IMG/VR virus record: IMGVR_UViG_3300029918_000010
Coordinates: 1 to 39,857 of that record
Strand: one strand, 5' to 3'
DNA from: a virus
DNA length: 39,857 bases
The notes beneath the pieces are model-generated. The model was given only the letters and a program-made list of their open reading frames with translations, did no database searches and was not told the origin of the DNA. Shown here one piece after another: positions 1,089 to 33,450 of this stretch (positions are counted from its first letter, which is position 1; every line of letters begins with the position of its first letter). A program made the translations under genes and the position numbers.

Positions 1089-1174
1089 AGATTGTATAAT
1101 TAGTTAAAATAAACATAATTGTTTATTCGTATATTTCTATATTAACTATTATTATAAGTTTAGTCAACAGATAT

Positions 1175-1873
1175 ATGCGCTATAATATTGACAGCGTGGT
1201 AGCTAATGTGTACTGTCATTATATGGATTTAACTAATATAACAGCAGAGACAGCATATACGTTAGGATTTATCTGGGCCGACGGGTCTATATCTAAAGAA
1301 AATAAAATTAAAATAGCTATAAAACAAGTTGATGCAGTAATTATTGAACCAACACTTATGAAAGCCTGGAATTGGAATATACGTAGAAATATACAAAAAA
1401 CAAATCCACCAGGGCAATTACAAATGAGTTTTCAAAAAGGTAGTGTAGAATTAGCAACTAAATTAATTAGTTACAATTATAGAAGTAAAGATCAAGCTCC
1501 TACAATATTAAGCATTATACCTGAAAACCTAACTCATTACTGGTGGAGGGGTTACAGTGATGGGGATGGTTGTTTTTGTATATCCAGAGATGGTCATTGT
1601 TCTTATAGTATTTGTGGTCCCTACACTCAAGATTGGTCTGCTTTTGAGAAATTAGTATTACCTATGGAGATTCATTATAGAATAGGGAGGGAGATTAATA
1701 AAAAAACTGGACATAAGGGTTCTAGAATAGTTATACCTAGCATTTGTGGTGGTTATAAATTCGGTAACTATATTTATCAAGGCTTTCTAGAAGACAGAAT
1801 TGGACTGACTAGAAAGTATGAGAAATATCTACAATTCAACTTACCAAGAAATGAAAGAAGAAGGCCTGCTTAA
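1175..1873 (+). CDS. Free-standing LAGLIDADG homing endonuclease
   Basis: Seen: two LAGLIDADG-type helices with their acidic residues, AYTLGFIWADGS near residue 27 and YWWRGYSDGDGCF near residue 122, spaced as in single-chain two-motif enzymes. Family knowledge: these enzymes cut a long recognition site and spread their own gene by homing. The gene is not inside an intein or recognisable intron and is the only plus-strand gene among minus-strand neighbours, which suits an inserted mobile gene. An alternative ATG at 1223 (MDLTNITAETAYTLG) would shorten it by 16 residues and is a typical start for the family. The TAA stop overlaps the TAA of the convergent gene at 1870 in a shared TTAA. Confidence 0.8.
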   Translation: MRYNIDSVVANVYCHYMDLTNITAETAYTLGFIWADGSISKENKIKIAIKQVDAVIIEPTLMKAWNWNIRRNIQKTNPPGQLQMSFQKGSVELATKLISYNYRSKDQAPTILSIIPENLTHYWWRGYSDGDGCFCISRDGHCSYSICGPYTQDWSAFEKLVLPMEIHYRIGREINKKTGHKGSRIVIPSICGGYKFGNYIYQGFLEDRIGLTRKYEKYLQFNLPRNERRRPA

Positions 1874-2154
1874 CTATGATGTACAAGCAGTAAAGTCTGA
1901 ATACACCAGCCCGCAAAAATTAATATCACATTTACGGCTACCAATACTCCAGTAGTTTTAGCTTTAGATAATTCAAGTTTTTCGACCTTTTCTCTCAGAC
2001 TTTTTACTTCATCTGCTTGAGCACAACTTAGCTTAATATCAGTAATATCCTTAGCTAATTGTTTTTGACCAGTCCTGAGTTCTTCAAGATTATCTTTAAT
2101 AGTTTTTCTCCATTCAGCATTCAATTGCTGTTCTAATTGTGTTTCGTTCGACAT
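1870..2154 (-). CDS. Small coiled-coil protein with C-terminal membrane segment
   Basis: Seen: 94 residues. Residues 5-68 are highly charged with heptad-like Leu spacing (LREKVEKLELSKAK), and residues 70-90 are a single hydrophobic segment (VLVAVNVILIFAGW) followed by a short tail. The architecture, soluble coiled coil then C-terminal anchor, resembles XhlA-type holin accessory proteins of phages, but I see no diagnostic motif. It lies 12 bases downstream of the RNAP beta N-terminal gene on the same strand and ends the left minus-strand block. A lysis role is inference only; a virion-internal membrane protein is equally possible. Confidence 0.6.
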   Translation of the reverse strand: MSNETQLEQQLNAEWRKTIKDNLEELRTGQKQLAKDITDIKLSCAQADEVKSLREKVEKLELSKAKTTGVLVAVNVILIFAGWCIQTLLLVHHS

Positions 2155-2166
2155 ATATTTGAGTAG

Positions 2167-2865
2167 TTATTCTTCTTCATTACCTATGACTTTATTATAC
2201 AATTTATCAAATTCTAGTCCAGTATATTGAGATTTATTTTTATTGAATATTTCAGAACCCCAAACTTTCTCCATCTCACTATCAGATACGCCCATTTCTT
2301 TAAGTAATCCATATAGCTTAATTTGAGTAGTTCCAACTTGATAAACGAATAATGCACGGTCAGGGTAAAAAATTACTTTGCCACCTACTCCAGTTCCAGG
2401 TAAGACATTGATGTGGGCTTCAGCTTCTCCAGATTCCTTAGTACGAGTATAGACACCTGGTAGTAAACGTTGTTGATGTGCAACTGAGTATTCCGCACCA
2501 TGTAAGATTACTGTATTCCTTTCAGTAAGCCAGGGGATATGAGCGATAGTTGTAGTTTTGGTATCTAATACATTACCAGTTTTCTTATCTATCATCTGAA
2601 AAGTACCTCGTAATGGAGTGGACAAATCTCTTTTCTCCATTATAGCCTTATTTTGTTCTTTATAAGTTGGAGAATGTTCAGGAGCATTATAAGATAAGTC
2701 TGTTACTTTTAGTTTGTAGGCTGGACTTTCAATTGTATTAAGCTTCTTCTGAAAAGAATCCAAGGCTTTAGTATGTAACCATTCCCTAGTCTTCTCTGGA
2801 TCGAAAAAACCACGCACATTCTTTGGAATAGGCAAACTATATAATGGATCTATATGATTGTTCAC
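2167..2865 (-). CDS. rpoB: RNA polymerase beta subunit, N-terminal fragment
   Basis: Seen: 232 residues beginning at a GTG two bases after the upstream stop. Residues 117-160 contain NTVILHGAEYSVAHQQR followed by LLPGVYTR, the counterpart of the beta N-terminal motif around FIINGAERVIVSQ and RSPGVYF. The end (YGLLKEMGVSDSEMEKVWG) matches the start of the beta lobe. Known: this part of beta forms the protrusion/lobe floor and holds no catalytic residues. The chain stops near where E. coli beta is only about one fifth complete. The C-terminal half of beta is on the other strand at 24275, and the part between (fork loop, rifampicin region) is absent from this window. Split beta subunits are known in phiKZ-like phages. 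Confidence 0.78.
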   Translation of the reverse strand: MNNHIDPLYSLPIPKNVRGFFDPEKTREWLHTKALDSFQKKLNTIESPAYKLKVTDLSYNAPEHSPTYKEQNKAIMEKRDLSTPLRGTFQMIDKKTGNVLDTKTTTIAHIPWLTERNTVILHGAEYSVAHQQRLLPGVYTRTKESGEAEAHINVLPGTGVGGKVIFYPDRALFVYQVGTTQIKLYGLLKEMGVSDSEMEKVWGSEIFNKNKSQYTGLEFDKLYNKVIGNEEE

Positions 2866-2867
2866 AA

Positions 2868-3668
2868 TTATAATGATTGTGGAGCATTCAGCCTAGGTTG
2901 TAAACTATTTTGTTGAGTTTGTTGGGTAGCTTGGGCTGTGGCTGCGGTATTTTTCATAATACTATACACCAAACCTATCAAAGCTGTTCCACCTATCACA
3001 CTAGCCAGAGTCTGCCAATTATTCTTTAACCACTGACCACTAAGTTCTCCAGCCCTCCCTAACATAGAATTAGTGACTAGAGACTTTATTTTAGGATCTT
3101 GCATCATCACACTAGATAATGTTTTATGATCTCCAGTTAGGCCTTGTTTAGCAGCACTACCTAAATCAGACCAGGAAGCATTACTAAAACTGGATTTAGC
3201 TCCTCTCTCTATCTGACTACTTAAGAATTTGGCTAAATCTGGATGATAAGTACCTATAGTATTTATTGCTACTGCTTGCTGTTCAGGAGGTAAATTTTGA
3301 AAACTAGTAAATACATCATTAAGTTTACCTTGATTATCAGCTAATGAAGCACTATTTATAGGATGTGCTAGTATCTGTGAAAATGAAGGAGTGACTGTAT
3401 TTTTAAATTGCTCAGGAGTAGTGGAAGCTAATTGATTATCTGGTATACTACTAATAGATTTCTCTATATTAGGCAAAGCTGATTCTACTTTAGGATAAAC
3501 ACTTTCAAAATCATTTATTGTATGCTGAGTTTGAGAGAGAAGAGGTGCCTTAATACCTGAGATAACTGGACTAGGAGCTGAAGGTGTTATTTGAGGTGTA
3601 GGAGGAGTTACTTGAGCAAACTTATTTATCTCACTAAGTACTCCTCTATAAAAAGCATTATTTTGCAT
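2868..3668 (-). CDS. Putative virion protein with N-terminal targeting-like peptide and one membrane segment
   Basis: No recognised family. Seen: the ATG at 3668 gives MQNNAFYRGVLSEINKFAQ, which fits the F-x-x-G-(F/L) N-terminal peptide shared by many proteins here; a GTG at 3677 is a weaker start. Residues 20-60 are Pro/Thr/Ser rich. Near residue 235 there is a hydrophobic glycine-containing segment (LASVIGGTALIGLVYSIM), then a Gln/Thr-rich tail. It overlaps the upstream gene by 11 bases, indicating co-translation. Inference: a virion-internal or ejected membrane-active protein. Confidence 0.6.
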   Translation of the reverse strand: MQNNAFYRGVLSEINKFAQVTPPTPQITPSAPSPVISGIKAPLLSQTQHTINDFESVYPKVESALPNIEKSISSIPDNQLASTTPEQFKNTVTPSFSQILAHPINSASLADNQGKLNDVFTSFQNLPPEQQAVAINTIGTYHPDLAKFLSSQIERGAKSSFSNASWSDLGSAAKQGLTGDHKTLSSVMMQDPKIKSLVTNSMLGRAGELSGQWLKNNWQTLASVIGGTALIGLVYSIMKNTAATAQATQQTQQNSLQPRLNAPQSL

Positions 3669-4626
3669 ATTCAACACCTACAGGATATTGAGCTTTTTCT
3701 TCCTTCTCTTTTTTCTTTAGATGATTATTTAATAGTATACCGAATGTACCAGCTGTACCTAAACCAGCTAATGCCTTCCAAGTATCTTTAGTCTGTCCCC
3801 AATAATTACCAGTAAGCTTGTTTACAAATGCATTACCACCTTTAGAAGCTTTATTAGATAAACTATCTTCAGCACTTAACAAGCTAGCATCATCAGTAGG
3901 GAGATTCTTCATAATAGTACTACTATCAATACCAGGTACTGCTGAGGGAGCAAATCCCATAGCATTTGGTGCATTTTCTGTTAAAGATTTAGTAGTTGGT
4001 TCTACATAATTATCAGCCACACCTAATGCACCTAAACCTGCGATAGGGGTAACCCATTTATGTTGATTAGTGAAACCTTTTACAGCATTAAGACCTGGTA
4101 CTTTATTTATCAGACCTTTTGTCAAACTAAGTAAAGAAGCAGCTTCTTTATCCAATTCTTCTGCAGCAGCTTTACAGAATGCATCTACTAATGGTGTTTC
4201 TTCACTCATTTTATTCATTTGTTGAGCTAGCATTAACTGCTTAGTATAATTCTTTTTAGCTTCGGCTATCTGAGCATTTCCTTGATTCTCCTGATATTTG
4301 TCATAAAGCGCTTTAGTTCCTAAGAATCCTATAGGCAAACCTACTAAGGCTGAGAGAGGAGAAACATACCAATCAGGCTGCATTGGTTCTGCTGATTTAC
4401 CGAAACCTTGTAATGGACCAGCTTCCCCAGGAGTTACTGAAGCAATTCCATTATTTTCCGGTAATTGTAGCTTGATTTTATTTTGCTCTACTTTAGGTGG
4501 ATTTAATTTACTCCCCATATCTGTGAGCAACCTTAGTCCGGCAAATACACTTCCGCCACCCAAAGCAGATAACAACATCAATTCTGGGGGAGTATAGCCT
4601 GAAGCTTTCTTTAAAATTTCATTCAT
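3658..4626 (-). CDS. Multi-spanning glycine-rich membrane protein, putative virion component
   Basis: No recognised family. Seen: 322 residues starting MNEILKKASGYTPPELM. Several glycine-zipper-like hydrophobic stretches occur: LMLLSALGGGSVFAGLRLL near 17-35, ALVGLPIGFLGTKAL near 93, VTPIAGLGALGVADNYV near 191, and ALAGLGTAGTFGILLNNHL near 285, the last followed by a Lys/Glu-rich tail. Between them a stretch rich in Ala, Glu and Lys (AFCKAAAEELDKEAASL) looks like an amphipathic helix. It overlaps the neighbours by 4 bases upstream and 11 downstream. Repeated Gly-rich membrane segments suggest a protein that inserts into a membrane, possibly at DNA ejection. That is inference. Confidence 0.6.
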   Translation of the reverse strand: MNEILKKASGYTPPELMLLSALGGGSVFAGLRLLTDMGSKLNPPKVEQNKIKLQLPENNGIASVTPGEAGPLQGFGKSAEPMQPDWYVSPLSALVGLPIGFLGTKALYDKYQENQGNAQIAEAKKNYTKQLMLAQQMNKMSEETPLVDAFCKAAAEELDKEAASLLSLTKGLINKVPGLNAVKGFTNQHKWVTPIAGLGALGVADNYVEPTTKSLTENAPNAMGFAPSAVPGIDSSTIMKNLPTDDASLLSAEDSLSNKASKGGNAFVNKLTGNYWGQTKDTWKALAGLGTAGTFGILLNNHLKKKEKEEKAQYPVGVEYAK

Positions 4627-20054: not shown

Positions 20055-20309
20055 ATGATAAATATTAATTCTTATATCGTTACAGAAAATTCAGTGGTTA
20101 GTGGAGTTACTTCTGGAGTTGAGGCATTACTTAAAGATGTGAATAACTTTAGCAAACCTGAGGTAGTTATAAATACAATCGCTAGTTCGGTAATGGATGA
20201 ACTATGCAATGTATTTGATTTCGGAGATCAGCCGCTAAGATTCACCCCAGACTTGATGCGGAAAATACTGCAATTAGCTAAGGAGCAGGAAAAGGAAGAG
20301 AAAGCTTAA
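20055..20309 (+). CDS. Small helical protein of unknown function
   Basis: Not recognised. Seen: 84 residues with a predicted helix-loop-helix: VSGVTSGVEALLKDVNNF, NTIASSVMDELCNVFDFG, then DLMRKILQLAKEQEKEEKA, the last a charged C-terminal helix. No membrane segment. It has its own strong promoter and probably a leaderless mRNA. Its TAA overlaps the TAA of the convergent helicase gene (shared TTAA). Its lone plus-strand position between terminator and helicase suggests it is expressed separately from the virion blocks. Confidence 0.6.
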   Translation: MININSYIVTENSVVSGVTSGVEALLKDVNNFSKPEVVINTIASSVMDELCNVFDFGDQPLRFTPDLMRKILQLAKEQEKEEKA

Positions 20310-23161
20310 TTGTAGTTAAGCCAAGATTTAGGTTCTTGATTCTTGGCTATTAAATTAGTTATTTCTTGATTAAGATTATCTTTTGGTTTACTGATTGAAT
20401 TTCTAATATATGAATCTGTACCAGTAGGTTTGGGATTGAATGTAAGTTTATCCAATAAACTAGGTTTTGGTGTGGCAAAATAACGTTGCACTAAAACCTT
20501 TCTCTTTTCTGGAGGCAAACTATCATGACTATGGAAACGTACTGATCTTCCGATAACTTGTCTCTCTTTAGGAAGGTTCCAAAAAGGTTCCAAAAGTTGT
20601 GTCAAATTTGTAGCCTTCAAATCCAATCCTTCAGCCCCAGCTCCTGATACTAATAATGCTCTTAATTTATTAGCATTATAATCTTTAACTGCCTGGTCTC
20701 TTATAGTAGGTGTTACAGCTCCACTAAACTCTCCAAATGGTATATTATTCTTTCTTAATAATGATTCATAAGGTCTAAGACCATTATTAAGATAATTACT
20801 ATATACTAGAGCTTTATAGTTTGGATCTTGTTTTAATTGTATTTGTAAAAACTTAAAAGCTGCATCTATTTTAGGGGATTCCACGTCTCTTAAATTTTTA
20901 GTAAATCCAGCAGTTGAATTGCTTACTTGTCTAGGTCCACTTAAAAATGCTCGCATACCTTCTAATTCACCACGTCCAGGAGGTAAATTATGTTTAATTC
21001 GATAACGTGTCCAAAATGGTGTCTTTCCGAGTATTGTATCATATATCTCTTGTTGTTTAGCACCCATAGGAACATTAACTTCTTGCTCCGTCACAGTAGG
21101 ATATCCTTCTTGAGTAGGTTTATAGTAGTCAACATACTTATCCAGAATCTTAGATAGTTGAGCTTTATTCTGTAGCTTATATTGAATGCCTGGAGAAACT
21201 CCCATTAATCTACCAAAAAATCCAGGTTTAACTTCTTCCTGTTTAAAATATTGTTTTTTAAACTCAGATAAATTATTAGGTAATACTTGTTTCTTTGCTA
21301 CTAAGTTAACAAGATTACTTAATTCAGTAGGATCATTTAGAATTGGAGTTCCTGAAAGGAGAAGGCGCTTGGCTGGATTCGTTTTAACCAATGCTTGATA
21401 TAATTCACTATTACTATTTTTAGCTTTTTGAGCTTCATCTACTATCTGCAAACCAGTATTGTATATTGGAGTATTTAACTTAGAATTAGCAAATCTTTGT
21501 TGACTAATTAAGTTGATATTAGAAGGATTAGAATTGCCATACCATCTCTGCAACTCTTTACGATAGTTGGATTTTAATGAAGCTGGAACAATGATATCAG
21601 TCTTAGGTAATCCTAATGCTTTCCAGGATTCAATACTTTCGCGTGTATTGTGCGTAACTATACAATGTTCAGTAATATATAGATGAGAAGGGTCATCGAT
21701 TGCAATACAGATTGTCTCTTTTTTTCCAACATATTCTATACTTTTTATATATCTAGTTGGTTTATATTTAGTCTTAGGAATTACTTGAATTGCTTTTCTG
21801 TGTAATCTAAATGGATTGATATTTGGTGGTAAACTTAACCAAACCCTATAACATAAAGCTCCTTTCTTTTTTTCTCCTTTATATGAATATGTTGGAATTC
21901 TAGTTGTTATCTTTGCTAAACCTCCTAGTGATTCAACAAGGAATTGCACACCATCTGCTAACTGTTTTGAGACGGACTCATAAACTATAGCCATACCATC
22001 TTTACTTACAGTACCATCAGTATCCATTAACCCTTGTAATAATGCTATGCGAGATTTCACTGTGTTAAACATATAAATATCAGGTATAAATTTTGTAAAA
22101 CAATTCATACCTTGTAATTTTAATTCTTTAAATGCTTGAACAATGTAACTGTTATATCCTTTTGGTTTACCTAATCCATAAGTATATTTAGAATATTTTT
22201 TAAGAGTAAAATTTGGAAATAAAGACTTAATTGATTGCAGAATTTCGTCATCTGCTGTTGTTATCGCACAGCCACCTCCACAAATACTACCATCTCCTAA
22301 AATCAAACCAACAAAATACGGGTCTAGTGGAAGTTTTCTATATTTAAAATGAATAGGTTTCACAATAGGAATAGTATAATTTAAACTATTATCATTAGAT
22401 AATACTGTATCTTTAATTTCGCTTGTACTCCTGACTTTACCTACCCACCTATATTTAAATTGATCCTTGCTTTTAACGTAATTTTTACGTTCACATCTAG
22501 ATTGAGTGAACCATAAATGAGAATCATCACATTCTATAGTAGCACCATCCCTAAAAGTAATTTTATACACATCTTTATACCCTTGAGGATAGACTCCAGT
22601 CACATTAGCTTTCACACCATTAACAGAAATCACTTCTGTGTTTTGTTTTATATCTTCTATATTTATCCACCCTGTAGGTGTTAATATCTTTGAGCCTATA
22701 ACCAATCCTTTTCCACTACCCATCCCATGATAAAGCACTAACCCTGAAGTATTCTTATCTTGAATCTTCTTAATTACTCTAGCTTGTTGAGGTTGTAACG
22801 CTTCTTCACCAGCCTCCTTCTTCAAAGGTACGGTTCTAGGATTCCCACCTACTACTGGATAACCCTCAGCCCTTAACTTCTTTGCCAACCATTCCTCGGT
22901 TCTTTCAGCTTTATGAAATGGCATGGGATTTAAATCTTTATAATGTTCAGGCCTAAGTCTAAGCCCATGATTCTTTACCCAGATATTGGCTTTTAGTCCA
23001 GTTTTATGTTTCTCGAATCTAGCTTCAGGACTCAAACCAGTCTCTCCTACATAAAGTGGAGGTAGTTCTGGATTGTAGTTAGGATTCAACTTTAAAAACT
23101 TTTTTTTAGCTAAGACCTCCTTATCCAATTCAACTACATATACATTGTGTCGGTCTGTCAT
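20306..23161 (-). CDS. GIY-YIG plus SNF2-like superfamily 2 helicase, interrupted by a class 3 intein
   Basis: Seen, numbered from the ATG at 23161: residues 5-105 form a GIY-YIG-like domain (NVYVVELDKE, PLYVGETGLSPEARFEKHK, AERTEEWLAKKLRAEGY). The helicase core then begins (QPQQARVIKKIQD). Walker A GMGSGK is cut from its Thr by the intein. After it follow motif II (VDEAQKAKN), motif III (LLLSGTPILND), motif V (LLVSGAGAEGLDLKATNL) and motif VI (KERQVIGRSVRFHSH). Known: such ATPases translocate on duplex DNA, and GIY-YIG domains nick DNA. Inference: a nuclease-translocase for replication, recombination or host DNA attack, about 597 residues after splicing. The ATG at 23161 follows the upstream stop by 1 base; a longer frame to 23206 overlaps that gene. 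Confidence 0.82.
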   Translation of the reverse strand: MTDRHNVYVVELDKEVLAKKKFLKLNPNYNPELPPLYVGETGLSPEARFEKHKTGLKANIWVKNHGLRLRPEHYKDLNPMPFHKAERTEEWLAKKLRAEGYPVVGGNPRTVPLKKEAGEEALQPQQARVIKKIQDKNTSGLVLYHGMGSGKGLVIGSKILTPTGWINIEDIKQNTEVISVNGVKANVTGVYPQGYKDVYKITFRDGATIECDDSHLWFTQSRCERKNYVKSKDQFKYRWVGKVRSTSEIKDTVLSNDNSLNYTIPIVKPIHFKYRKLPLDPYFVGLILGDGSICGGGCAITTADDEILQSIKSLFPNFTLKKYSKYTYGLGKPKGYNSYIVQAFKELKLQGMNCFTKFIPDIYMFNTVKSRIALLQGLMDTDGTVSKDGMAIVYESVSKQLADGVQFLVESLGGLAKITTRIPTYSYKGEKKKGALCYRVWLSLPPNINPFRLHRKAIQVIPKTKYKPTRYIKSIEYVGKKETICIAIDDPSHLYITEHCIVTHNTRESIESWKALGLPKTDIIVPASLKSNYRKELQRWYGNSNPSNINLISQQRFANSKLNTPIYNTGLQIVDEAQKAKNSNSELYQALVKTNPAKRLLLSGTPILNDPTELSNLVNLVAKKQVLPNNLSEFKKQYFKQEEVKPGFFGRLMGVSPGIQYKLQNKAQLSKILDKYVDYYKPTQEGYPTVTEQEVNVPMGAKQQEIYDTILGKTPFWTRYRIKHNLPPGRGELEGMRAFLSGPRQVSNSTAGFTKNLRDVESPKIDAAFKFLQIQLKQDPNYKALVYSNYLNNGLRPYESLLRKNNIPFGEFSGAVTPTIRDQAVKDYNANKLRALLVSGAGAEGLDLKATNLTQLLEPFWNLPKERQVIGRSVRFHSHDSLPPEKRKVLVQRYFATPKPSLLDKLTFNPKPTGTDSYIRNSISKPKDNLNQEITNLIAKNQEPKSWLNYN
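21647..22708 (-). other. Class 3 intein with LAGLIDADG endonuclease in the helicase Walker A motif
   Basis: Seen: 354 residues between GSGK and T of the P-loop. The first residue is Gly (GLVIGSKILTPTGWINIEDI), not Cys or Ser. Block B has the sequence DDSHLWFT (Trp), block F has ETICIAIDDPSHLYI (Cys at position 4), and it ends IVTHN followed by Thr. That Trp-Cys-Thr set defines class 3 inteins, which start splicing from the block F Cys. The centre has two LAGLIDADG motifs (PYFVGLILGDGSI and LLQGLMDTDGTV). Confidence 0.85.
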
Positions 23162-23162
23162 A

Positions 23163-23840
23163 TCAGTAATTATAGTAAGTCCCTTTATCCACCCAATTAG
23201 TACCACCTTGTAGATTATATTGATGAGGCAAGCTTGTAGTTATTGGATCATTAGGATTCCTATCTTTAATAATTCTATTTATTATATTCACTACGTCTGG
23301 GTATTCATTAGTCTTAAATTGACTTGGAATTAATGGACCATAATGCCTGGGAGGGATTTGAACAACGTTAGTAAGATTAGGGAATAATTTACGGTACATA
23401 GCTGGAGTAGCAAACCCTTTAAGCACTTCGTTTGGACTCACATTAGTATTGGAGCAATCCCCACCATTACAAGCAGTAGTATAAATATTATTGATATTGT
23501 TAGTAGCTGGACCAATAAGTTTAGCCAATGTTTGAGGAGTATAAGTTAGTGGTTCATTGTTATAAAGCAAGTTTTTAGAATTATTAGAATCACTTTGAAA
23601 TGCATATTCTCCATTAATAGCACTATCAGGACCACCGTGAGCATTTATATTAAGGGTATTACCACCTTTATTAACAAAATTATGCATATTTGGAGGGAGA
23701 CCACCAACAGTATAAGCATTGTGTGGTAATGAAATCATCGGAATTTTTGGAGGTGTAGGAGGTGTAGGAGGTGGAGGAGGTGGAGGGAGTGGGCCAGCAG
23801 CCTTGATAAAACCATTAATAAATGCATCTAACTTATTCAT
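23163..23840 (-). CDS. Putative caspase-like (clan CD) cysteine peptidase with virion-type N-terminal peptide
   Basis: Seen: 225 residues. The start MNKLDAFINGFIKAAG is the shared peptide and is followed by a Pro/Thr linker (residues 17-33). The globular part has TLNINAHGGPDSAING with His68-Gly69 after a hydrophobic strand, and INNIYTTACNGGDCSN with Ala123-Cys124 after a second strand. Known: clan CD peptidases (caspases, gingipain, C80, CHAT) are marked by exactly this HG ... AC pair. The helix between (TLAKLIG) also fits. It starts in an 8-base overlap with the lysozyme-like gene. Inference: a packaged peptidase active in the capsid or in the host. Without structure prediction this stays a motif-based call. 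Confidence 0.5.
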   Translation of the reverse strand: MNKLDAFINGFIKAAGPLPPPPPPPTPPTPPKIPMISLPHNAYTVGGLPPNMHNFVNKGGNTLNINAHGGPDSAINGEYAFQSDSNNSKNLLYNNEPLTYTPQTLAKLIGPATNNINNIYTTACNGGDCSNTNVSPNEVLKGFATPAMYRKLFPNLTNVVQIPPRHYGPLIPSQFKTNEYPDVVNIINRIIKDRNPNDPITTSLPHQYNLQGGTNWVDKGTYYNY

Positions 23841-24274: not shown

Positions 24275-27028
24275 ATGAGTTATACTGTACTTAATAAGGG
24301 AAATTTTGAGAAGGTGGACAAACTAAATGAAGATCATATATCCATGCCTTCGAGTAGGGATTTATTTGCTTTACCTACTAACATGATTACTGGGCTAAAT
24401 TCAGTTTCCGGCGGGCGTGTGTTACTAGGAGCCAAGGCTTCTCTCCAAGCTATACCTTTAGTAAATCCTGAACGTCCGTTAGTAGAAAGTTCAGATGACA
24501 CTAACAAAGAAAGTACTCAAGAACTATATGGTAAACATTATTTATCTGTAACTGCAACTAAACCTGGTACTGTTACTGAAGTTACTGAAAATCATATTAA
24601 AGTAGATAATACAGATAAAACCAAGTCTACCTATCAACTATATAATAACTTTCATTTAGGCAGGAAAAGCTTTATTACTCATACCCCTAAAGTGAAGGTT
24701 GGTGATAAAGTTAAAACTAATGAAGTAATAGCTTACAGTAATTATAATGATAAAGAAGGTAATATGGCGATGGGAACTAACCTTACTACTGCTATAATCC
24801 CGTACCGCTCAGACAACTTTGAGGATGCTTTTGCAGTGACTGAAAGTGGTGCTAAAAAGTTGGCAGCAGAACAAATGATCAATTTTAGTATTGAAGAGAA
24901 ATTTGGAGTAGAGGCAGGCAAGGATAAATTTGTAGCACTATTTCCTAATAAATATACGAATAATCAAATTAAAAATATAGATTCAGATGGAGTGGTTATA
25001 GTAGGGTCTAGATTGAAAGCTGGAGACCCGGTAATCCTGGCTTACTCACCCAGAGCATTAAAGAGTACAGATTTGGCATTAGGTAAGCTGAGTAAAGTAT
25101 TAAAACATGCATTCAAAGATAATTCAGAAGCCTGGGACTACGAACATGATGGAGAAGTAGTGGATGTAACCAAACATGGCCCACTTATTACAGTACATAT
25201 CAAGACGGTAAGAAGTCTATTACCTGGTGATAAGATTTCTAATTACTTTGGAGCTAAGGGTGTAACGAAGATTGTATCAGACTCACAAGCTCCACTACTA
25301 CCTAATGGGAAGCCAGTTGATATCATGCTTAACTCCATGTCCATCACGTCAAGAGTTGCACCAGCCTTAGCCATAACTCTAGGCCTTGGTAAATTAGCTG
25401 AGAAGACTGGTAAGACTATTAAAATGGATCAGTTTAGAAAGGATTCATCTATTAAGAATGTAATTAATGTATTAAAGAAGAATAATATAAATGATACTGA
25501 ACAACTATATGATCCAATTACTGGTAGAAATATTGAAGCAGTTGTAGGTCCATTATTCTATAGTAGGTTAACTCATATTAGTGAAGATAAACTAAGTACT
25601 AGAAGTCAGGGGTCCGGATACAGTTTCGACCGGCAACCAAGTAAGTCAGCAGTGGAAGGTGGTTCATCAAAGAGAATAGGAAATTTAGGTACTACAGCTT
25701 TGCTAAGTCATGATGTCAGACATGTATTGGAGGATATAGGTACTGTTAAAGGTACTCAGAATGATGAATTCTGGCGTGCTATTAAATTGGGCCAAACCCC
25801 ACCCAGCCCTAAAGTTCCATTCATCTTTAACAAGTTCATAGATAGTTTAAAAGCTGCCGGTATTAATGTAGATAGAGTTGGTAATACCTTTAATATCCTA
25901 CCTTTAACAGATAAGGATACTACTGCTTTGAGTAATGGTGAAATTAAGAAACCTTCATTATTCAAGCCACATCAAGAAGAACTAATACATGAACCTGGCG
26001 GACTATTTGATCCTAATATAATAGGCATATTAGGTGACAAGTTTAATCACATAAATCTTAATCATCCCATACCTAATCCTATTAGTGAGGATTATCTCAG
26101 AAAGTTGTTAGGAGTTACCAAGTTTAAGTTTAATGATATGGTAGTGGATGGGGAAATGGAAAAAGCCCTTAATAATATAGATCTGGATAAGAAGATAGAA
26201 GAAATGAAGAAGTATATAGGTAGTGAGAAGAAGACTAGAAGAGATGATGCCGTTAAATTGTTAGAATTTCTCACTACACTAAAAGAACATAAGTTACATC
26301 CTAAAGATTTGATGTTGCATAAAGTACCTATTCTACCAGCCCAATACAGACCTGCTAGTAAGATGGGTGATGTAGTATTAACTAGTGATGTTAATAATCT
26401 ATATAAAGACCTCATACTAAATAACAATGCACTTAAAAATACTGAGAATGTGCCGGACGAAGTAGTTAGGAAATTAAAACAAAATGAATATGATGGAGTA
26501 AAAGCTGCCTTTGGTTTGGGTGATCCAATTAATAAGAAACACCAGGATAAGAATGTTAAAGGTATATTAGCTACTATGTTTGGATTAAAGGGTGGAACGG
26601 CTAAAAGTACAATGTTTCAGAGTAAGGTGGTTAATAAGAGTCTGGATTTGGTGGGAAGAGCTGTGTTAACTCCAGATACTAGATTGGATGTAGACCAGGC
26701 TAGTGTACCTCAAGATATGCTGTGGCAGATATATAAACCTTTTGTTATTAGAAGGTTGGTTATGAAGGGTGTACCAGCTATTAGTGCGGTTGATTATGTT
26801 AAAAAACATAGTCCATTAGCAGTTATGGCATTAAAGGAAGAGATGGCAGTAAGACCTGGTATTATAACGCGAGATCCAGCCTGGCATAAATATAATCTAT
26901 TAGGGTTTAATTTAATTGCTAATCCAAATTCTAAAGATAAAACTATTAAAATGAATCCATTAGTATTTAAGGGGTATGGTGCGGATAGTATTGTAGATTA
27001 TATTATTTATAGAGAGAAAATTAATTGA
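24275..27028 (+). CDS. rpoB: RNA polymerase beta C-terminal / beta' N-terminal fusion ending in a short N-intein
   Basis: Seen, numbered from the ATG at 24275 (917 aa): beta signatures run from LNEDHISMPSSRDLFALP (about 17) through RVLLGAKASLQAIPLVNPE, SDNFEDAFAVTESGA and LLPGDKISNYFGAKGV (about 315-330, the Lys pair of the beta active site) to KPVDIMLNSMSITSR and the clamp region. Without a stop the chain continues into beta': GGLFDPNIIG (about 575), VPILPAQYRP, DVNNLYKDLILNNNALK, VGRAVLTPDTRLDVDQASVP, then MNPLVFKGYGAD (893-904). The last D is the first Asp of the catalytic NADFDGD motif. The final 13 residues are an intein start. The beta' zinc-ribbon N-terminus is not recognisable. Beta-beta' fusion is known in Helicobacter and some mobile-element polymerases. 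Confidence 0.85.
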   Translation: MSYTVLNKGNFEKVDKLNEDHISMPSSRDLFALPTNMITGLNSVSGGRVLLGAKASLQAIPLVNPERPLVESSDDTNKESTQELYGKHYLSVTATKPGTVTEVTENHIKVDNTDKTKSTYQLYNNFHLGRKSFITHTPKVKVGDKVKTNEVIAYSNYNDKEGNMAMGTNLTTAIIPYRSDNFEDAFAVTESGAKKLAAEQMINFSIEEKFGVEAGKDKFVALFPNKYTNNQIKNIDSDGVVIVGSRLKAGDPVILAYSPRALKSTDLALGKLSKVLKHAFKDNSEAWDYEHDGEVVDVTKHGPLITVHIKTVRSLLPGDKISNYFGAKGVTKIVSDSQAPLLPNGKPVDIMLNSMSITSRVAPALAITLGLGKLAEKTGKTIKMDQFRKDSSIKNVINVLKKNNINDTEQLYDPITGRNIEAVVGPLFYSRLTHISEDKLSTRSQGSGYSFDRQPSKSAVEGGSSKRIGNLGTTALLSHDVRHVLEDIGTVKGTQNDEFWRAIKLGQTPPSPKVPFIFNKFIDSLKAAGINVDRVGNTFNILPLTDKDTTALSNGEIKKPSLFKPHQEELIHEPGGLFDPNIIGILGDKFNHINLNHPIPNPISEDYLRKLLGVTKFKFNDMVVDGEMEKALNNIDLDKKIEEMKKYIGSEKKTRRDDAVKLLEFLTTLKEHKLHPKDLMLHKVPILPAQYRPASKMGDVVLTSDVNNLYKDLILNNNALKNTENVPDEVVRKLKQNEYDGVKAAFGLGDPINKKHQDKNVKGILATMFGLKGGTAKSTMFQSKVVNKSLDLVGRAVLTPDTRLDVDQASVPQDMLWQIYKPFVIRRLVMKGVPAISAVDYVKKHSPLAVMALKEEMAVRPGIITRDPAWHKYNLLGFNLIANPNSKDKTIKMNPLVFKGYGADSIVDYIIYREKIN
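26987..27025 (+). other. Short N-intein (about 13 residues) of a split intein
   Basis: Seen: directly after the catalytic Asp comes SIVDYIIYREKIN and then TGA. The first eight residues fit intein block A (nucleophile Ser1, Ile2, Asp4, then hydrophobics). Known: atypically split inteins such as AceL-TerL and VidaL have N-parts of about 16-25 residues. This would be at or below that range. Confidence 0.6.
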
Positions 27029-27053
27029 CAAGTTCAACTAGTCACCGTATTGT
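27025..27053 (+). promoter_or_regulatory. Possible promoter of the C-intein gene, overlapping the upstream stop
   Basis: TTGACA (27025-27030), 17-base spacer, TATTGT (27048-27053), ATG 6 bases further at 27060. It overlaps the TGA of the upstream gene. The geometry equals that at 20020 and 24239. Confidence 0.4.
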
Positions 27054-27059
27054 GTCTAT

Positions 27060-28508
27060 ATGATTAATTATAAATATACACTAGTACCTATTTCAGATTT
27101 CCCTAGAATAGAAAATTCAGCCACTACTACTATAAATGGTAATATCCTTTATGATGTACCTAGTAATGTAGAAGTAAAATCATTAAACCTTATAACTGGT
27201 GAAGTAGATTGGGTAAATCCAAAGACATTCTCGATTCATCCTAATGTACCTTTATATTTGGTACAATTTATAGATGGGGATTTTATATTTGCAGCCAAAG
27301 ATCATAGTTTATTAGCTTATACTGATAGTGGTATTGAAGAAGTTGATACCGAAGAGGCAGTAGGTAGGTATTGTCCTAGTGATGTTACAACTATAGCACC
27401 CAATATTCAATCAAGTGTATTAGCTGAAGGTATGATGGGTACTAGAGGAATGAAAGGAATACGAGGAAAAGGATTTGTTAAAAATTCATTTAACTTGCAA
27501 CTTAATTATAAAACCGGACTTTTTATAGGAATGGTTTTAGGTGATGGTTGGGTAGATAATGCTAATCAACTTTTCTTAGCCGGTTCTACCAAAGAAAAAT
27601 TAATGAATAGAAAAGTATTTGCTGATTTATGTAATAGTGAATATCTTCCTTATGAAAATGGAGTTAAAGAAATAGATAGAGTTAGTGAGAATATGATGGG
27701 GCAATTTACTTCTAGAGGTAAAACTAGAGCTTCTTGTGCCTGGTTTAATAAGTGGTTAAAAGAGCAGATAGGGAGTGGAGCTTTTAATAAGAAAATACCT
27801 ACTTTTAGTTTAAACGGTCCTGAAGAACATCTACTAGGTATATTAGATGGGTTAATCTCAACTGATGGAACAGTAAGTGTCAGTTCTTCTAATAAAACAG
27901 TTATAAATATAAGTATCTGCACATCATCAATTCATTTAATTAACGGTTTAAGATATATGAGTAAACGGTTAAATTTAAATTATGGAGTATATAAAGGGGC
28001 ATCTAGGCTGAGTAGTAAAGATAATTTCTCCTTCAGATTTCATACTGGGACATTTAAAAAGTTAGTTGAAAGAACAAAATTTAGAATAAGTCATGAGTTG
28101 AAGAAGGAAAAATTAGAGAATAGCTTAAAAGATATAACAGGTATAGGTGATAACTTTAATGACTTAGTACCACTTCCTTCAGAAACTGTTAAAAAAAATA
28201 TAATTACAGCTATTAATAATAAATATAAATTACAAAAGAATAAGGAACTTTATAATTTAAAATATAGATTAAGCCAGGAATTTAAAACAGATAGATTTCG
28301 TAAAAGCACTTTAAAAGAAATAATTGAAATACTTCTAGTTGAGTTAAAGAATAATGAACAATGGATATCATATTTAGGTAAGGTGTATAATGGTAGTTTA
28401 AAATGGAAGAAAGTTAAAAGAGTAACTAAGTTACAATCTAATACTGCTTACGATTTGGAAATACCAAACTACGGAAGTTTCTTAACTATAGGAGGATATA
28501 CAAAAAAT
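27060..28508 (+). other. C-intein (483 residues) with LAGLIDADG endonuclease
   Basis: Runs from the ATG to the Asn of TKN before Ser484, the +1 nucleophile. The usual penultimate His is replaced by Lys, and the block F Asp is present (YDLEIPN). Endonuclease motifs look intact, so it may still home. Confidence 0.78.
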
Positions 28509-28781
28509 TCCGACGGAGACCAACTTAATGTCCATATTCCAGGCACTGAAGAAGCACGTAAAGAAGTTATAGCTAAAATGATGCCTAGCAAAAATTTATT
28601 ATCTGTTAAATCTTTTCAACCTGTATTAATCCCTAGTAATGAAGCAGCTTTGGGCCTTTATGGACTAAGTACAGAAAACAAACATAACACTCCTAAAAAA
28701 TATAAAACTGAACAAGAAGTAGTTGCTGCATATAACAGAGGTGATTTAGAGCCAGGAGACAACATAGAAATAGAGAAATGA
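27060..28781 (+). CDS. rpoC: C-intein with LAGLIDADG endonuclease joined to the RNAP beta' catalytic segment
   Basis: Seen: 573 residues. Residues 1-483 are intein: block B around NVEVKSLNLITGEVDWV and FAAKDHSLLAY, LAGLIDADG motifs GLFIGMVLGDGWV (about 155) and LLGILDGLISTDGTV (about 258), and block F/G NTAYDLEIPNYGSFLTIGGY ending TKN. Residues 484-573 are polymerase: SDGDQLNVHIPGTEEARKEV, then LIPSNEAALGLYGLS, matching beta' just after the catalytic motif. Block A is missing here and is found at the end of the previous gene. Trans-splicing would give GYGAD-SDGDQ, with Ser in place of the usual Phe. The frame differs from the upstream gene and a TAG lies between, so the two are separate products. 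Beta' resumes at 31111. Confidence 0.85.
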   Translation: MINYKYTLVPISDFPRIENSATTTINGNILYDVPSNVEVKSLNLITGEVDWVNPKTFSIHPNVPLYLVQFIDGDFIFAAKDHSLLAYTDSGIEEVDTEEAVGRYCPSDVTTIAPNIQSSVLAEGMMGTRGMKGIRGKGFVKNSFNLQLNYKTGLFIGMVLGDGWVDNANQLFLAGSTKEKLMNRKVFADLCNSEYLPYENGVKEIDRVSENMMGQFTSRGKTRASCAWFNKWLKEQIGSGAFNKKIPTFSLNGPEEHLLGILDGLISTDGTVSVSSSNKTVINISICTSSIHLINGLRYMSKRLNLNYGVYKGASRLSSKDNFSFRFHTGTFKKLVERTKFRISHELKKEKLENSLKDITGIGDNFNDLVPLPSETVKKNIITAINNKYKLQKNKELYNLKYRLSQEFKTDRFRKSTLKEIIEILLVELKNNEQWISYLGKVYNGSLKWKKVKRVTKLQSNTAYDLEIPNYGSFLTIGGYTKNSDGDQLNVHIPGTEEARKEVIAKMMPSKNLLSVKSFQPVLIPSNEAALGLYGLSTENKHNTPKKYKTEQEVVAAYNRGDLEPGDNIEIEK

Positions 28782-28797
28782 AAGAAGAAGACCTTAT

Positions 28798-29019
28798 ATG
28801 ATAACTAGAGATGTATGGTTAGTATTGAACGAACAACAGAAATTAGATAAGTTGATAGAAGCTCTAACTCAACTAAGAGATATTGATTTGCCTAAAAGTA
28901 AATTAAAGGGTAGAATAGACCAAGGTAGATTAGCTAATGTTAAAAAATCCTTGGAAGAATTTATTATTGATGAAGCTGTGGCCTGGGAAAGTGAGAAACT
29001 ATTACAAAAGTATCATTAA
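28798..29019 (+). CDS. Small charged helical protein
   Basis: Not recognised. Seen: 73 residues, almost wholly helical and charged (LNEQQKLDKLIEALTQL, KGRIDQGRLANVKKSLEEF, AVAWESEKLLQKYH). No membrane segment. It begins 16 bases after the C-intein/beta' gene and lies between beta' pieces, so it may be a small polymerase-associated factor, but position is the only argument. A 63-base AT-rich gap with TAA in all relevant frames separates it from 29083. Confidence 0.58.
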   Translation: MITRDVWLVLNEQQKLDKLIEALTQLRDIDLPKSKLKGRIDQGRLANVKKSLEEFIIDEAVAWESEKLLQKYH

Positions 29020-29082: not shown

Positions 29083-29736
29083 ATGACTTACAGACAAATC
29101 TTAGAAGAAATAGGTAGTATGATGCATAAACAAGCATTTATACCATCACCTAATAGTACTGCTGCTCAACAACAAGGAGGTTTACCTGGGCAACAACCTC
29201 AACCTCCACAATCTTCACAATCTCCACAACCAAGTCAAGGTGGATCAGGTCAACAACCAGACCCACAACAGATGGCTCAATTAGCTCAACAAATGGGTCA
29301 AGGCCAAGGAATGCAACAAGAAGGCCAGGGTCAACCTCAGCAAGATCTGAGTCAGGGAGGTCAGCCACAACCAGGACAAAGTGATGATTTAGCCCCAAAA
29401 CAACAGTCTAGAGGGTTAAAAGATACTACAGTTACATTAAGTGTAGCTGATCTATTAGATTTACATAGTGGCGGGAAGGCAACACAGAGTCATTTGAAGA
29501 CTGAACAATTAAAAGAAAAGCATCAATATGAACGTGCTAAGATGCATAGGGAAGAGCAACAGAAGCAGAGAGAAGAACAGCAGAAGCAACAACAAGAACA
29601 AATGATGCAACAACAGCAACAACAAGGTATGATGGGTGGAGGTATTTATGGTAGTGGGCCGATGGATGGTAGTAATCCTGCACAACCAACCCAACCAGCA
29701 CAATCAGCCCAACCCCAACAAGGTCTAGGTATATGA
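29083..29736 (+). CDS. Gln/Pro-rich low-complexity protein, putative virion component
   Basis: Not recognised. Seen: 217 residues. An amphipathic N-terminal helix (MTYRQILEEIGSMMHKQAF) resembles the other N-terminal peptides loosely. Residues 25-105 are Gln/Pro/Gly/Ser (GQQPQPPQSSQSPQPSQGG). A short ordered block LKDTTVTLSVADLLDLHSGG follows. After a charged helix (LKEKHQYERAKMHREEQQKQ) comes a Gln run, and then a Gly/Gln/Pro tail. The long coiled Gln-rich helix may bind other proteins. It overlaps the next gene by ATGA. Confidence 0.6.
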   Translation: MTYRQILEEIGSMMHKQAFIPSPNSTAAQQQGGLPGQQPQPPQSSQSPQPSQGGSGQQPDPQQMAQLAQQMGQGQGMQQEGQGQPQQDLSQGGQPQPGQSDDLAPKQQSRGLKDTTVTLSVADLLDLHSGGKATQSHLKTEQLKEKHQYERAKMHREEQQKQREEQQKQQQEQMMQQQQQQGMMGGGIYGSGPMDGSNPAQPTQPAQSAQPQQGLGI

Positions 29737-30434
29737 ATCTAAATAACGCATTTATTAACGGATTTATTAAAGCTTCTGCAAATCCTATTAAGTCATTTGA
29801 AGAATTGGCTAATGTACTTAAACCTGAAGTTACTGGTGCTACTGAGGCTACTGGTGCTTCTATACCAGAGGCAGCTGTTTCTAATTTAGCTATACCTAAA
29901 GCTCCTTCTAGTTCTGACTTTCCATCTAGTAAACTTAATCTAGGTTCTATAAGTAATAAGATTAAATTAGATGGCTTTGGAGGAAATCAACTTAAATTAA
30001 ATAGTAAACCAGAACCAGCTAATATTGATGCCAAATCCGTATTGAGTAAACTATTCAAAAGTAAATCAGTTGGTGACATGGGACTAGGTACTGCTGCCGG
30101 ACTTGGAGTAGGTGGAGGCATAGGTGCTCATTATGCTGGTCAAGGATTAGGTAATGTATTTAATAATGTAAATGCTAATACTACTATTAAACCTAGTATA
30201 CATGGAGCTATAACTGGAGCAGAACAAGCTTTACATAAGAATGATATTTCTCCCCAATCTTTATTTGAAGTATTATCCAATCATATTAGTAACAACAAAG
30301 TTCCTTATGAATTAGGTTTGGGCGCTGCAGGTTTAGGTGGTTTAGGGGCTTATCTATATAGCAAGCATAGAAAATCAGAAGATAGTGAATATGATAATGG
30401 TGAAGATGAACCAGGCGGAAATCCAGAAATCTAA
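29733..30434 (+). CDS. Putative virion membrane protein with FINGFIKAS N-terminal peptide
   Basis: Not recognised. Seen: 233 residues starting MNLNNAFINGFIKAS, canonical shared peptide. Residues 25-105 are a low-complexity Thr/Ala/Ser/Lys linker. Two glycine-zipper segments follow: MGLGTAAGLGVGGGIGAHYA near 116 and LGLGAAGLGGLGAYLYSKHR near 194. The end is acidic. The pairing of targeting-like peptide with Gly-rich membrane helices repeats the left-block proteins, so these two gene blocks make one family of products. Overlaps the upstream gene by ATGA; 2 bases to the next. Confidence 0.62.
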   Translation: MNLNNAFINGFIKASANPIKSFEELANVLKPEVTGATEATGASIPEAAVSNLAIPKAPSSSDFPSSKLNLGSISNKIKLDGFGGNQLKLNSKPEPANIDAKSVLSKLFKSKSVGDMGLGTAAGLGVGGGIGAHYAGQGLGNVFNNVNANTTIKPSIHGAITGAEQALHKNDISPQSLFEVLSNHISNNKVPYELGLGAAGLGGLGAYLYSKHRKSEDSEYDNGEDEPGGNPEI

Positions 30435-31110: not shown

Positions 31111-33450
31111 ATGTCTGAGGTAACAACAGTAGGCAAAATCCTGCTTAAGCATTACTCTCCTGCTAACTCTCATTCATTTATAGAAAGCAAAGATTTGGAT
31201 AAGAAGAATATAGGTGCTTTCTTCTCTAATTTAGCAGAGCATAATGAAGATAGTTATAAGAAAGTAGTATCAGATTTAACTAGACTTGGGTTTGAATCAG
31301 CTACTAGGTTGGGTAGTACTGTCAGACTAGGTGACTTGCTTCCACCCTCCTTTAAAGATGAGAGATTTAAAGAACTCAATAAAGAGATTAAGAGCATAAA
31401 GGATAAAAAGTTACCTAAAAAGAAAGAAGATGATGAACTAACAAATTTGCTCAACAAGTTTTCTGACACTGCAAATAAGGAAATAATAGAAGAAGGCCTT
31501 AAAGATAATAAGACTCTAGCCAAGGTAGTTAAAGCCGGAGCGAGAGGGAGTCCCGAACAATATCGTCAAACTATTTTCTCCCCAGTAGCCGTTAACGATA
31601 ATAAAGGCGGTATTCTAACTGATTTTATTATTGATAGATCTTTTGCTGAAGGATTAACCTTGCCCCAATATTTGGCACATACTTTTGGTGCGAGACAAGC
31701 CAGCGCGGCCACAAAATTATCAGTGGCAGAAGGTGGGTTTTTAGGCAAGCAATTAGCTAGAGCAAACATGACAATGGTGATAGAAGAACATGATTGTGGT
31801 ACTCATAATGGAATACCTGTAAAAACAAATGATAATGATTACATCGGTTCGTTCTTAGCTCATCCTATAGACAAATATCACTATAATAATGAAGTTACCT
31901 CTAGTATGCTGGGTATTCTAAAAAGCAAAGGCATAGAAGAGATTGTAGTTAGAAATCCTATAACTTGTGAAGCTAGTCATGATGGAACTTCTAGTGCTCT
32001 TTGTCAATTATGTGTGGGTATCAGAGGTAAAGGCTTGTCTGAACTTAATTCTTTTATTGGAGTTGTTGCCGGTACTTCAGCAGCAGAACCAGTAGCACAA
32101 GGGGCGTTAAACTGTTTAGCTGAAGGAACACTAGTAAGAATGGCAGATTATTCTATTAAAGCTATTCAAGATATAAAGGTCGGAGATATGGTGCTTGGCT
32201 CTGATAACGCTGGTCAAACCTCTCCAGTCAAAGTTCTAAGGTTATTCAATCAAGGATTACAACCTGTTAATAAATATATATTTATAGATAATAAAGATAA
32301 AGTAATTGAACTATATGCTACAGAGAATCATAAGATACTTTGTGAAACCCTGGAATGTAGTAATGTATTAACAGAAATGCCTCTAAAAGATATTGATGAA
32401 ACTATAGATGTAGTTACTACAAATGATTATTGGGTAGTACTATACAATAAACCAGAGTATCTAGGATTAATACAATGTTGGGATATTGAAGTAGATAGTA
32501 AAGATGCTTTATTTGTATTAGCGAATGGCTTAATAGTACATAATAGTAAGCACAAGGGAGGTAGTGCAACTGGTTCTAATCAATTTGGTGGCTTTAAATA
32601 CATCAATCAATTATTTAATATCCCGGATTCATTTGTCCATGAAGCCCCAATAGCTGACTCTGATGGTAAGATAGAAGAAGTAAGAGTAGCACCACAAGGA
32701 GGTCATTATATAGTTATTAAGCATGATAATGGAAAACTTGAAGAATATTATGTACACCCAGATTTGAAAGTATTGGTTAAATCAGGCCAGCTAGTTGAAG
32801 AAGGTGATGTGTTAAGTGATGGTATACCTAATCCAGCTAAAATAACAAAGCATAAAGGTATTGGAGAAGGTAGAAGGTATTTCTCCAAAGCTATTAAAGA
32901 TACATTTGAAACTAGTCAATTAGGTGGAATAAATAAACGTAATTTTGATATTATAAGTAAAGGTTTAATTACTCATGTTAAAATAACCAATCCTAAAGGC
33001 TTAGGGAATAACTTGCCAGACAGTATAGTAAATTATCATACACTGGAGAAAGCCTATTCTCCTAGAACTAATAGTAAGAAGGTCAGAACTGATATGGCTC
33101 AAGGTTTATACTTGGAAATACCTGAATTACACTATACAATAGGAACTAGAATCACCAGTACTGTAATTAATGAGTTGAAGAAACATAATATCGATTATGT
33201 TACGGTAAATGAGACAAAACCTGAATTTGAACCAGAAATGCAAAGATTATTAGATGTCCCAGCACATGAACATGACTGGATGCATACCTTATATAGTACT
33301 AATCTGGAACGTAGATTAATAAAGGCTGTCAATACTGGAGCTTCTAGTAGTTTGGAGGGACCATCTCCAATACCAGGGCTTGCATATGCCAAAGGATTTG
33401 GGACCCATAAATTTGCAGAAGAACTGGAAGAGCAGTTATCATTTGAGTAA
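31111..33450 (+). CDS. rpoC: RNA polymerase beta' C-terminal fragment with internal mini-intein
   Basis: Seen: 779 residues. TTVGKILLKHYSP at the start matches beta' shortly after the segment ending at 28781. Then LTRLGFESATRLGSTV, KAGARGSPEQYRQTIFSPVA, SFAEGLTLPQYLAHTFGARQ (about 177-196, bridge-helix/trigger-loop neighbourhood), EEHDCGTHNG, RNPITCEASHDGTSSALCQL with paired Cys, and VVAGTSAAEPVAQGALN (318-334). The intein occupies 335-478. SKHKGGSATGSNQFGG then resumes the region equal to the GEPGTQLTMRTFHTGG motif. The C-terminus (GYTRITS-type GTRITSTVINELKK, HEHDWMHTLYSTNLERRLIK) fits the beta' end. Spliced length about 635. Start is 2 bases after the previous stop. Confidence 0.85.
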   Translation: MSEVTTVGKILLKHYSPANSHSFIESKDLDKKNIGAFFSNLAEHNEDSYKKVVSDLTRLGFESATRLGSTVRLGDLLPPSFKDERFKELNKEIKSIKDKKLPKKKEDDELTNLLNKFSDTANKEIIEEGLKDNKTLAKVVKAGARGSPEQYRQTIFSPVAVNDNKGGILTDFIIDRSFAEGLTLPQYLAHTFGARQASAATKLSVAEGGFLGKQLARANMTMVIEEHDCGTHNGIPVKTNDNDYIGSFLAHPIDKYHYNNEVTSSMLGILKSKGIEEIVVRNPITCEASHDGTSSALCQLCVGIRGKGLSELNSFIGVVAGTSAAEPVAQGALNCLAEGTLVRMADYSIKAIQDIKVGDMVLGSDNAGQTSPVKVLRLFNQGLQPVNKYIFIDNKDKVIELYATENHKILCETLECSNVLTEMPLKDIDETIDVVTTNDYWVVLYNKPEYLGLIQCWDIEVDSKDALFVLANGLIVHNSKHKGGSATGSNQFGGFKYINQLFNIPDSFVHEAPIADSDGKIEEVRVAPQGGHYIVIKHDNGKLEEYYVHPDLKVLVKSGQLVEEGDVLSDGIPNPAKITKHKGIGEGRRYFSKAIKDTFETSQLGGINKRNFDIISKGLITHVKITNPKGLGNNLPDSIVNYHTLEKAYSPRTNSKKVRTDMAQGLYLEIPELHYTIGTRITSTVINELKKHNIDYVTVNETKPEFEPEMQRLLDVPAHEHDWMHTLYSTNLERRLIKAVNTGASSSLEGPSPIPGLAYAKGFGTHKFAEELEEQLSFE
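32113..32544 (+). other. 144-residue mini-intein at the beta' trigger-loop region
   Basis: Starts CLAEGTLVRMADYSIKAIQD (Cys1, block A), block B with ATENHKILCE (His), block F CWDIEVDSKDALFVLANG, and ends LIVHN before Ser. All splicing residues are present; there is no endonuclease. Inteins at the equivalent site are known in archaeal RNAP A''. Confidence 0.9.

Follow-up and report, generated by a model that had tools for sequence, protein, structure and literature searches.

The window analyzed here, the complete 39,857-bp record IMGVR_UViG_3300029918_000010 of an uncultured phage, contains two neighbouring open reading frames (ORFs), ORF1 (24275-27028) and ORF2 (27060-28781), between which the active-site motif of the beta' subunit of a phage RNA polymerase (RNAP) is divided. 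The divided gene consists of the following parts, the two intein pieces being assigned as an N-intein and a C-intein:

24275-26986, plus strand: N-extein, in which the C-terminal part of RNAP beta runs on into the N-terminal part of beta'; its last residues are GYGAD, with the first catalytic Asp.
26987-27025, plus strand: candidate N-intein of 13 amino acids (N13), SIVDYIIYREKIN, with Ser1; its start is the empty-site boundary set by the relative L014.
27060-28508, plus strand: C-intein of 483 amino acids, ending in GGYTKN, assigned through NCBIfam PRK14898, Pfam Intein_splicing and homology to the intein of the relative L048.
27831-28007, plus strand: LAGLIDADG_3 homing endonuclease domain inside the C-intein (PF14528, E value 8e-8, above the cut-off, residues 258-316).
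28509-28781, plus strand: C-extein, the beta' fragment beginning SDGDQLNVH, with the other two catalytic Asp residues and Ser at +1, assigned through TIGR02386 (rpoC) and homology to L014.

ORF1 matches the Pfam families PF00562 (E value 5e-45) and PF00623 above their cut-offs and PF04997 slightly below it, and gives partial matches to the NCBIfam rpoB and rpoC models that stay under the whole-protein cut-offs; alignment with Arash, Vibrio phage D69 and L014 yields the same assignment. Its tail reads LVFKGYGAD-SIVDYIIYREKIN, with FKGYGADSIVDYIIYREKIN as the last residues before the TGA stop codon at 27026-27028. ORF2 starts at the ATG at 27060 in a different frame, begins with MINYKYTLVPISDFPRIENS and runs for 573 codons without a stop; its intein part ends in AYDLEIPNYGSFLTIGGYTKN, and beyond the splice border the frame resumes as SDGDQLNVHIPGTEEARKEV. 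The TIGR02386 match within ORF2 (E value 1e-14) covers residues 480-572. Only when GAD and SDGD are joined is the NADFDGD-type Asp triad of beta' whole. The relative L014 (78% amino acid identity) possesses one uninterrupted gene of 985 amino acids with the undivided motif FKGFGADNDGDQLNIHVP (GADNDGDQLN) and reads GADNDGDQLNIHVPATEEARKEV around the insertion site, which fixes the insert in the window as 26987-28508 (1522 bp). The reading of the ORFs and the undivided motif of L014 thus bear out the original prediction that the extein borders lie within the Asp motif of beta'. We also looked for a third gene with a full NADFDGD motif: when two long records of this phage (151 kb and 127 kb) were compared with the L014 motif segment (E value up to 1), it matched only the two halves, and no further copy of the whole motif was found.

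The junction is identical in three other IMG/VR contigs carrying different metagenome numbers. Two of them match the window over 18,751 bp with 0 mismatches; the third matches over 11,970 bp apart from a single mismatch at position 18538 and stops inside ORF2, at window position 28244. These contigs perhaps derive from related samples and therefore speak against an assembly error, not for selection. The same split, which the original prediction suggested looking for in relatives, occurs in none of the 32 other relatives that were readable at the motif. These comprise 13 loci from a set of 23, 15 further loci, and Arash, L056 and the Vibrio phages D69 and D181, the last two being nearly identical. 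Within the set of 23, the motif could be read in 14 loci, reduced to 13 since L020 ends before it; the unread loci are L011-L013, which represent the same phage, and L025 and L029-L033 with partial matches. Twenty-nine of the 32 relatives, including Arash, D69 and D181, are uninterrupted, while L048, L056 and L043 carry an in-frame intein just downstream, the L043 contig ending inside its intein. No relatives of the RNAP were found in plasmids at E values up to 1e-40.

The C-intein matches the intein-bearing model PRK14898 (E value 1e-14) and Pfam Intein_splicing (E value 3e-6), both under the curated cut-offs, and the LAGLIDADG domain that it was originally predicted to retain is indeed present. 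Judged by sequence alignment, the C-intein is homologous almost from end to end to the contiguous intein of 492 amino acids that L048, a related phage polymerase, carries after ADYDGD, 3 residues downstream of the window site, a relationship newly recognized here. When the two window pieces are joined (493 amino acids), residues 12-486 align with residues 10-484 of the L048 intein at 24% identity (BLAST, E value 5e-27 in a two-sequence database). A profile made from both inteins has as its best solved relatives the TFIIB intein 5o9j (E value 5e-6) and PI-PkoII 2cw7 (E value 1e-5), and the block B region lies within both alignments. We take MjaTFIIB to be 5o9j or 5o9i, and PI-TkoII to be PI-PkoII. 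MjaTFIIB and PI-TkoII are listed as Ser1/Ser+1 (Thr+1) inteins (PMC10189870). The C-intein alone found no match in the PDB at E values up to 1, none of 64 pattern matches in genome contigs was confirmed as an intein relative, and a search of phages at E values up to 0.01 gave only weak matches (best 5e-5 and 8e-7).

The residues expected at the splice sites are largely in place. The nucleophile Ser1 sits exactly at the extein border fixed by L014, with Asp at -1; the block B His is present (AAKDHSLL), and the terminal Asn (YTKN) is followed by Ser+1. By its Ser1 and Ser+1, the predicted intein would belong to the cysteine-independent inteins, an assignment made here for the first time. A further His (H70 of the joined sequence) aligns with the NX-motif position (FSIHP in the window, VSRHP in TFIIB) and precedes the block B residue H92 by 22 residues, the same spacing as that of the pair His68/His90 in Aes123 PolB1 (PMC13014065).

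N13 was assigned because of its position, its Ser1 and its match to the N-terminus of the TFIIB intein (SVDYNEPIIIKENGEIKVV; letters confirmed except Ser1), with which VDY, II, E and IENS align. In this comparison N13 beats 3224 of 3243 Ser-initial 13-mers; 19 of them equal it, as do 7 of 3203 others. According to the alignment (the structure models of the C-intein and of L048 are poor), N13 ends near the turn formed by KENGE in the TFIIB intein, the turn at which VidaL and PolB16 are naturally split (PMC13014065). Two separate frames, an N-piece of 13 amino acids compared with about 11-16 and a cut near the turn that comes after the strand next to block A are features of an S1 split. Engineered N-inteins of 10-12 amino acids supported trans-splicing in 4 of 14 inteins (PMC3620165). 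The resemblance is good to the TFIIB intein and at chance level to the nearest phage inteins, and we regard N13 as the N-intein with moderate confidence.

These data point, with a probability of roughly 60%, to a natural Ser1/Ser+1 intein, atypically split at S1, that splices in trans. ORF1 would yield the N-extein with the 13-residue N-intein, and ORF2, translated from its own ATG, the C-intein with its LAGLIDADG endonuclease domain and the C-extein. By docking onto the C-intein, N13 would complete the Hint fold with its first strand. Ser1 would then attack after Asp(-1), the ester would move to Ser+1 and the last Asn would cyclise; the ligated chain ...KGYGADSDGDQLNVH... would have its Asp triad restored and would carry the junction peptide GADSDGDQLNVH. 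In the window, neither half is interrupted by a stop codon, and the three other records carry identical copies, one of them with ORF2 truncated where its contig ends.

Several points weigh against trans-splicing. All the evidence for it is drawn from sequence, and the split has so far been seen in a single phage lineage, which makes selection unmeasurable. The first 11 joined residues, most of N13, fall outside the BLAST alignment with L048, so that this alignment supports the C-intein and not N13 itself; in a direct comparison with the N-termini of L048 and L043, 29% of the Ser-initial 13-mers of the window score as well as N13. The TFIIB comparison was made after this null result, and 202 of 3000 shuffles of the N13 letters with Ser fixed match TFIIB equally well. 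Searched with L048 alone, archaeal V-ATPase inteins come first (E value 1e-4) and TFIIB only fourth (E value 0.028). The first 111 joined residues on their own have no intein match in PDB, Pfam or NCBIfam, and the AlphaFold models are poor, with predicted local distance difference test values of 44.6 for L048 and 38.9 for the C-intein. The residue before the NX His is Ile in the window (Val in L048 and L043; the His itself is not kept in L056), a departure from the Arg/Lys described as invariable at this position (PMC10189870). Block A lacks GDT and has VDY instead, as does 5o9j, and the penultimate intein residue is Lys, not His. GDT and the penultimate His are often absent in real inteins.

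How the split may have arisen is indicated by a pair of repeats at the junction:

27020-27069, plus strand: a 7-bp direct repeat, ATTAATT, with copies at 27020-27026 and at 27063-27069 on either side of an inferred insertion of 43 bp (e.g., 27026-27068).

Removal of 43 bp, one repeat copy plus the bases between, gives an open intein frame of 493 amino acids. Since a frame-restoring repeat of at least 7 bp arises by chance in 60 of 2000 shuffles, such an insertion is likely, not certain; in total, the region allows 944 open joins. An explanation of the split put forward here for the first time, and probably the best one, is that 43 bp were inserted between 7-bp repeats at the S1 turn: a continuous intein of about 493 amino acids at this site would have been split in its first hairpin turn by an insertion that brought both the stop codon of ORF1 and the start codon of ORF2, which the 43 bp indeed carry. 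The insert occurs once each in three of 7 records, all three of this phage; no second copy was found in the 7 records at up to 3 mismatches, and a scan of viral contigs with the insert core matched only the three records of this phage. A repeated mobile element was rejected on these grounds. A duplication of block A DNA within the insert was rejected as well: 69 of 1000 shuffle pairs reach the same local similarity. The region has another 7-bp repeat (GTATTGT at 26988 and 27047), which, unlike ATTAATT, does not restore the frame when joined. An intron in the split region was rejected on the basis of the Rfam scan of 26500-29000, which gave no match at gathering score and one sub-threshold snoRNA match (E value 0.17). 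No tRNAs were found in the window.

Separate expression of ORF2 was considered in the light of a sequence upstream of its start codon:

27025-27053, plus strand: promoter-like TTGACA-17-TATTGT, ending 6 nt before the ATG at 27060; one of six sites at 10/12.

The TTGACA-type promoter originally proposed over the junction is thus present, but shuffled sequences yield more such sites (mean 32.7) than the region itself (21), and it therefore adds little weight. No Shine-Dalgarno-like word precedes ORF2; such words (six words, 25 bases before the start) are absent from 37 of the 39 picked ORFs of the window, so their lack is usual here. T stands at -1 of ORF2 and of 28 of the 38 other picked ORFs. 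The few Shine-Dalgarno sequences and the frequent T before the start suggest a host with Shine-Dalgarno-independent translation.

The insertion may instead have simply broken the gene, with the phage living on the host RNAP or with a helper. Insertions usually inactivate, N13 is only moderately intein-like, and near-identical records cannot reveal selection. Set against this, the RNAP parts, the third RNAP gene among them, are open, the 573 codons of ORF2 have kept their splice-site residues, and the same allele recurs in three other records; we consider an inactivated polymerase unlikely. This third gene is as follows:

31111-33450, plus strand: third RNAP gene, C-part of beta', an open frame that is not trans-split and holds its own cis mini-intein (32113-32544).

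A further rival is translational bypassing, in which the ribosome would halt at the AAT before the TGA, skip 43 nt and land on the matching AAT, producing a single continuous precursor with an intein that splices in cis, as in the 50-nt case of T4 gene 60. Like that gene, the window has a short insert that is out of frame and lies between matched codons, the first of them directly followed by a stop, and the gap is close to the 50 nt of T4 (PMC5009743). A small hairpin lies just past the take-off codon (-4.1 kcal/mol, z -2.06; equalled by 11 of 200 shuffles). Matched codons are, however, expected from any insertion with direct repeats, and the AAT TGA ... AAT pattern is accounted for by the direct repeat present here. 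No strong stem-loop was found here, where bypassing is a candidate reading; shuffled sequences fold as well as the 56-nt stretch (z -1.0) and the 89-nt stretch (z -0.4). The insert has no second copy in the 7 records, and of the 97 ORFs of G004 with homologues in G001 (97 of 199, at least 80 amino acids; small genes and piece borders lie outside the view of this comparison) 6 align in two pieces, of which only beta' shifts frame. In addition, the ATG of the insert provides an ordinary start. Bypassing is in our judgement improbable; a phage bypass element inside an intein, followed by cis splicing, would impose two successive unconventional decoding steps on the catalytic loop, and we give this version slightly less credence.

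A different history, in which a 55-bp insert (26987-27041) directly follows GAD, block A is SPYCVYMIN in the ORF2 frame and the ORF1 tail is meaningless, is very improbable. The joined frame would also be open, as it is for 944 joins in the region, and its N-terminus scores slightly better on L048/L043 (-1.5 versus -4.0), but it has no flanking repeat, its block A lacks Asp and it scores 11 on the TFIIB intein compared with 30 for N13. A sequencing or assembly error, conceivable for a metagenome assembly, can practically be dismissed, in agreement with the original prediction, since three other records from possibly related samples are identical at the junction and no one- or two-base indel joins frames of which one closes at 27026 and the other opens only past 27041; the TAG that the prediction placed between the genes does exist (27039-27041, in the ORF2 frame upstream of its ATG), but the stop of ORF1 itself is the TGA.

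Further intervening elements were observed in these polymerases and in this phage. The mini-intein of the third RNAP gene (32113-32544, plus strand) has 144 amino acids, Cys1 and HN|S, lies at EPVAQGALN^SKHKGG and is absent from L014. We take its site to be the trigger-loop region of beta'; together with the split intein, two catalytic elements of the polymerase would then be intein-interrupted. At 3806-3840 in L056, the motif ahead of the intein is GADYDGN, where Asn replaces the expected third catalytic Asp, and two intein starts, CADF and CMQTADTK, are candidates. The beta part of L048 (6961-8019) and of L043 has an additional intein at GDKL^C...SGN^SGRYGNKG, and that of L056 at SGN^CGRHGNKG, which makes two inteins in one gene. 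Vibrio phage D181 (L010) carries a group I intron at 4051-4331 (RF00028, E value 1.5e-26) followed by a homing endonuclease gene; the two separate RNAP gene pieces that form one coding sequence in Vibrio phage D69. Elsewhere in the window, a SNF2-type helicase gene (20306-23206, minus strand) contains a LAGLIDADG intein, by sequence reading in its GxGSGK motif. In L068, from the same phage, the gene at 786-3341 (minus strand), with a weak match to a head maturation protease, has an in-frame LAGLIDADG/Hint insert that is absent from the relative G004. The window proteins encoded at 23163-23840 (minus strand) and 29733-30434 (plus strand) have at their N-termini a common leader resembling AFINGFIKAA/S, which may be a capsid-targeting peptide, and an L014 protein has a similar leader, AFLTGMIKAA.

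Among known systems, the PolB16 OarG split intein from a sheep gut metagenome (PMC10189870) offers many parallels to the proposed one: Ser1/Ser+1, a His in the NX motif, a metagenomic origin, an atypical split near the N-terminus, Asp at -1 (SGDTD in the PolB16 construct used) and a very short N-fragment. Its host protein is a PolB DNA polymerase and its C-part has 168 amino acids, whereas the window has an RNAP and 483; its NX and block B His residues (68/109) are 41 apart compared with 22. Trans-splicing is proven for PolB16 with an N-fragment of 15 amino acids, while the window system, with its candidate of 13, is known from sequence. VidaL (16 amino acids, cut at S1) and AceL-TerL (25 amino acids) likewise combine a short N- with a large C-fragment but are cysteine-dependent, and AceL-TerL is cut at S2 (PMC13014065). 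The contiguous inteins of L043 and L048 share with the window intein the host protein, Ser1, homology and a site only 3 residues away; they differ in being encoded in one frame, in cis, and inserted after DGD rather than inside AD^xDGD, and the L048 intein ends with Asp before Thr+1 where the window has Asn before Ser+1. In phage MIJ3, a putative split PolB intein has an HNH gene between its halves (PMC6892783). The archaeal rPol A' intein and a second archaeal rPol intein were the only RNAP inteins known before PMC1635734, as stated there. Among the matches listed from the open-access PMC literature, we saw none that describes a split intein in the beta' subunit of an RNAP.

If splicing occurs, an N-intein of 13 amino acids, as short as originally anticipated, would lie below the published minimum of 15 (PMC10189870, 2023; PMC13014065, 2026). 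The locus would also illustrate how a contiguous homing intein becomes a split intein by a single small insertion, with the contiguous homologue and the empty site both in hand. Because the cut lies between the catalytic aspartates, the RNAP should be inactive before protein ligation; that the split serves as a control point of the polymerase is speculation. The beta' genes of zeta-group crAss-like phages are also broken inside the motif, DxDxD, by stops and frameshifts, the expression of which their authors left unexplained (PMC7886860). Those polymerases differ in being very divergent, with alternative genetic codes and many introns, and section 11 of that report proposes no split intein (PMC7886860). 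For such broken DxDxD motifs of crAss-like phage polymerases, trans-splicing as proposed here would provide a testable model.

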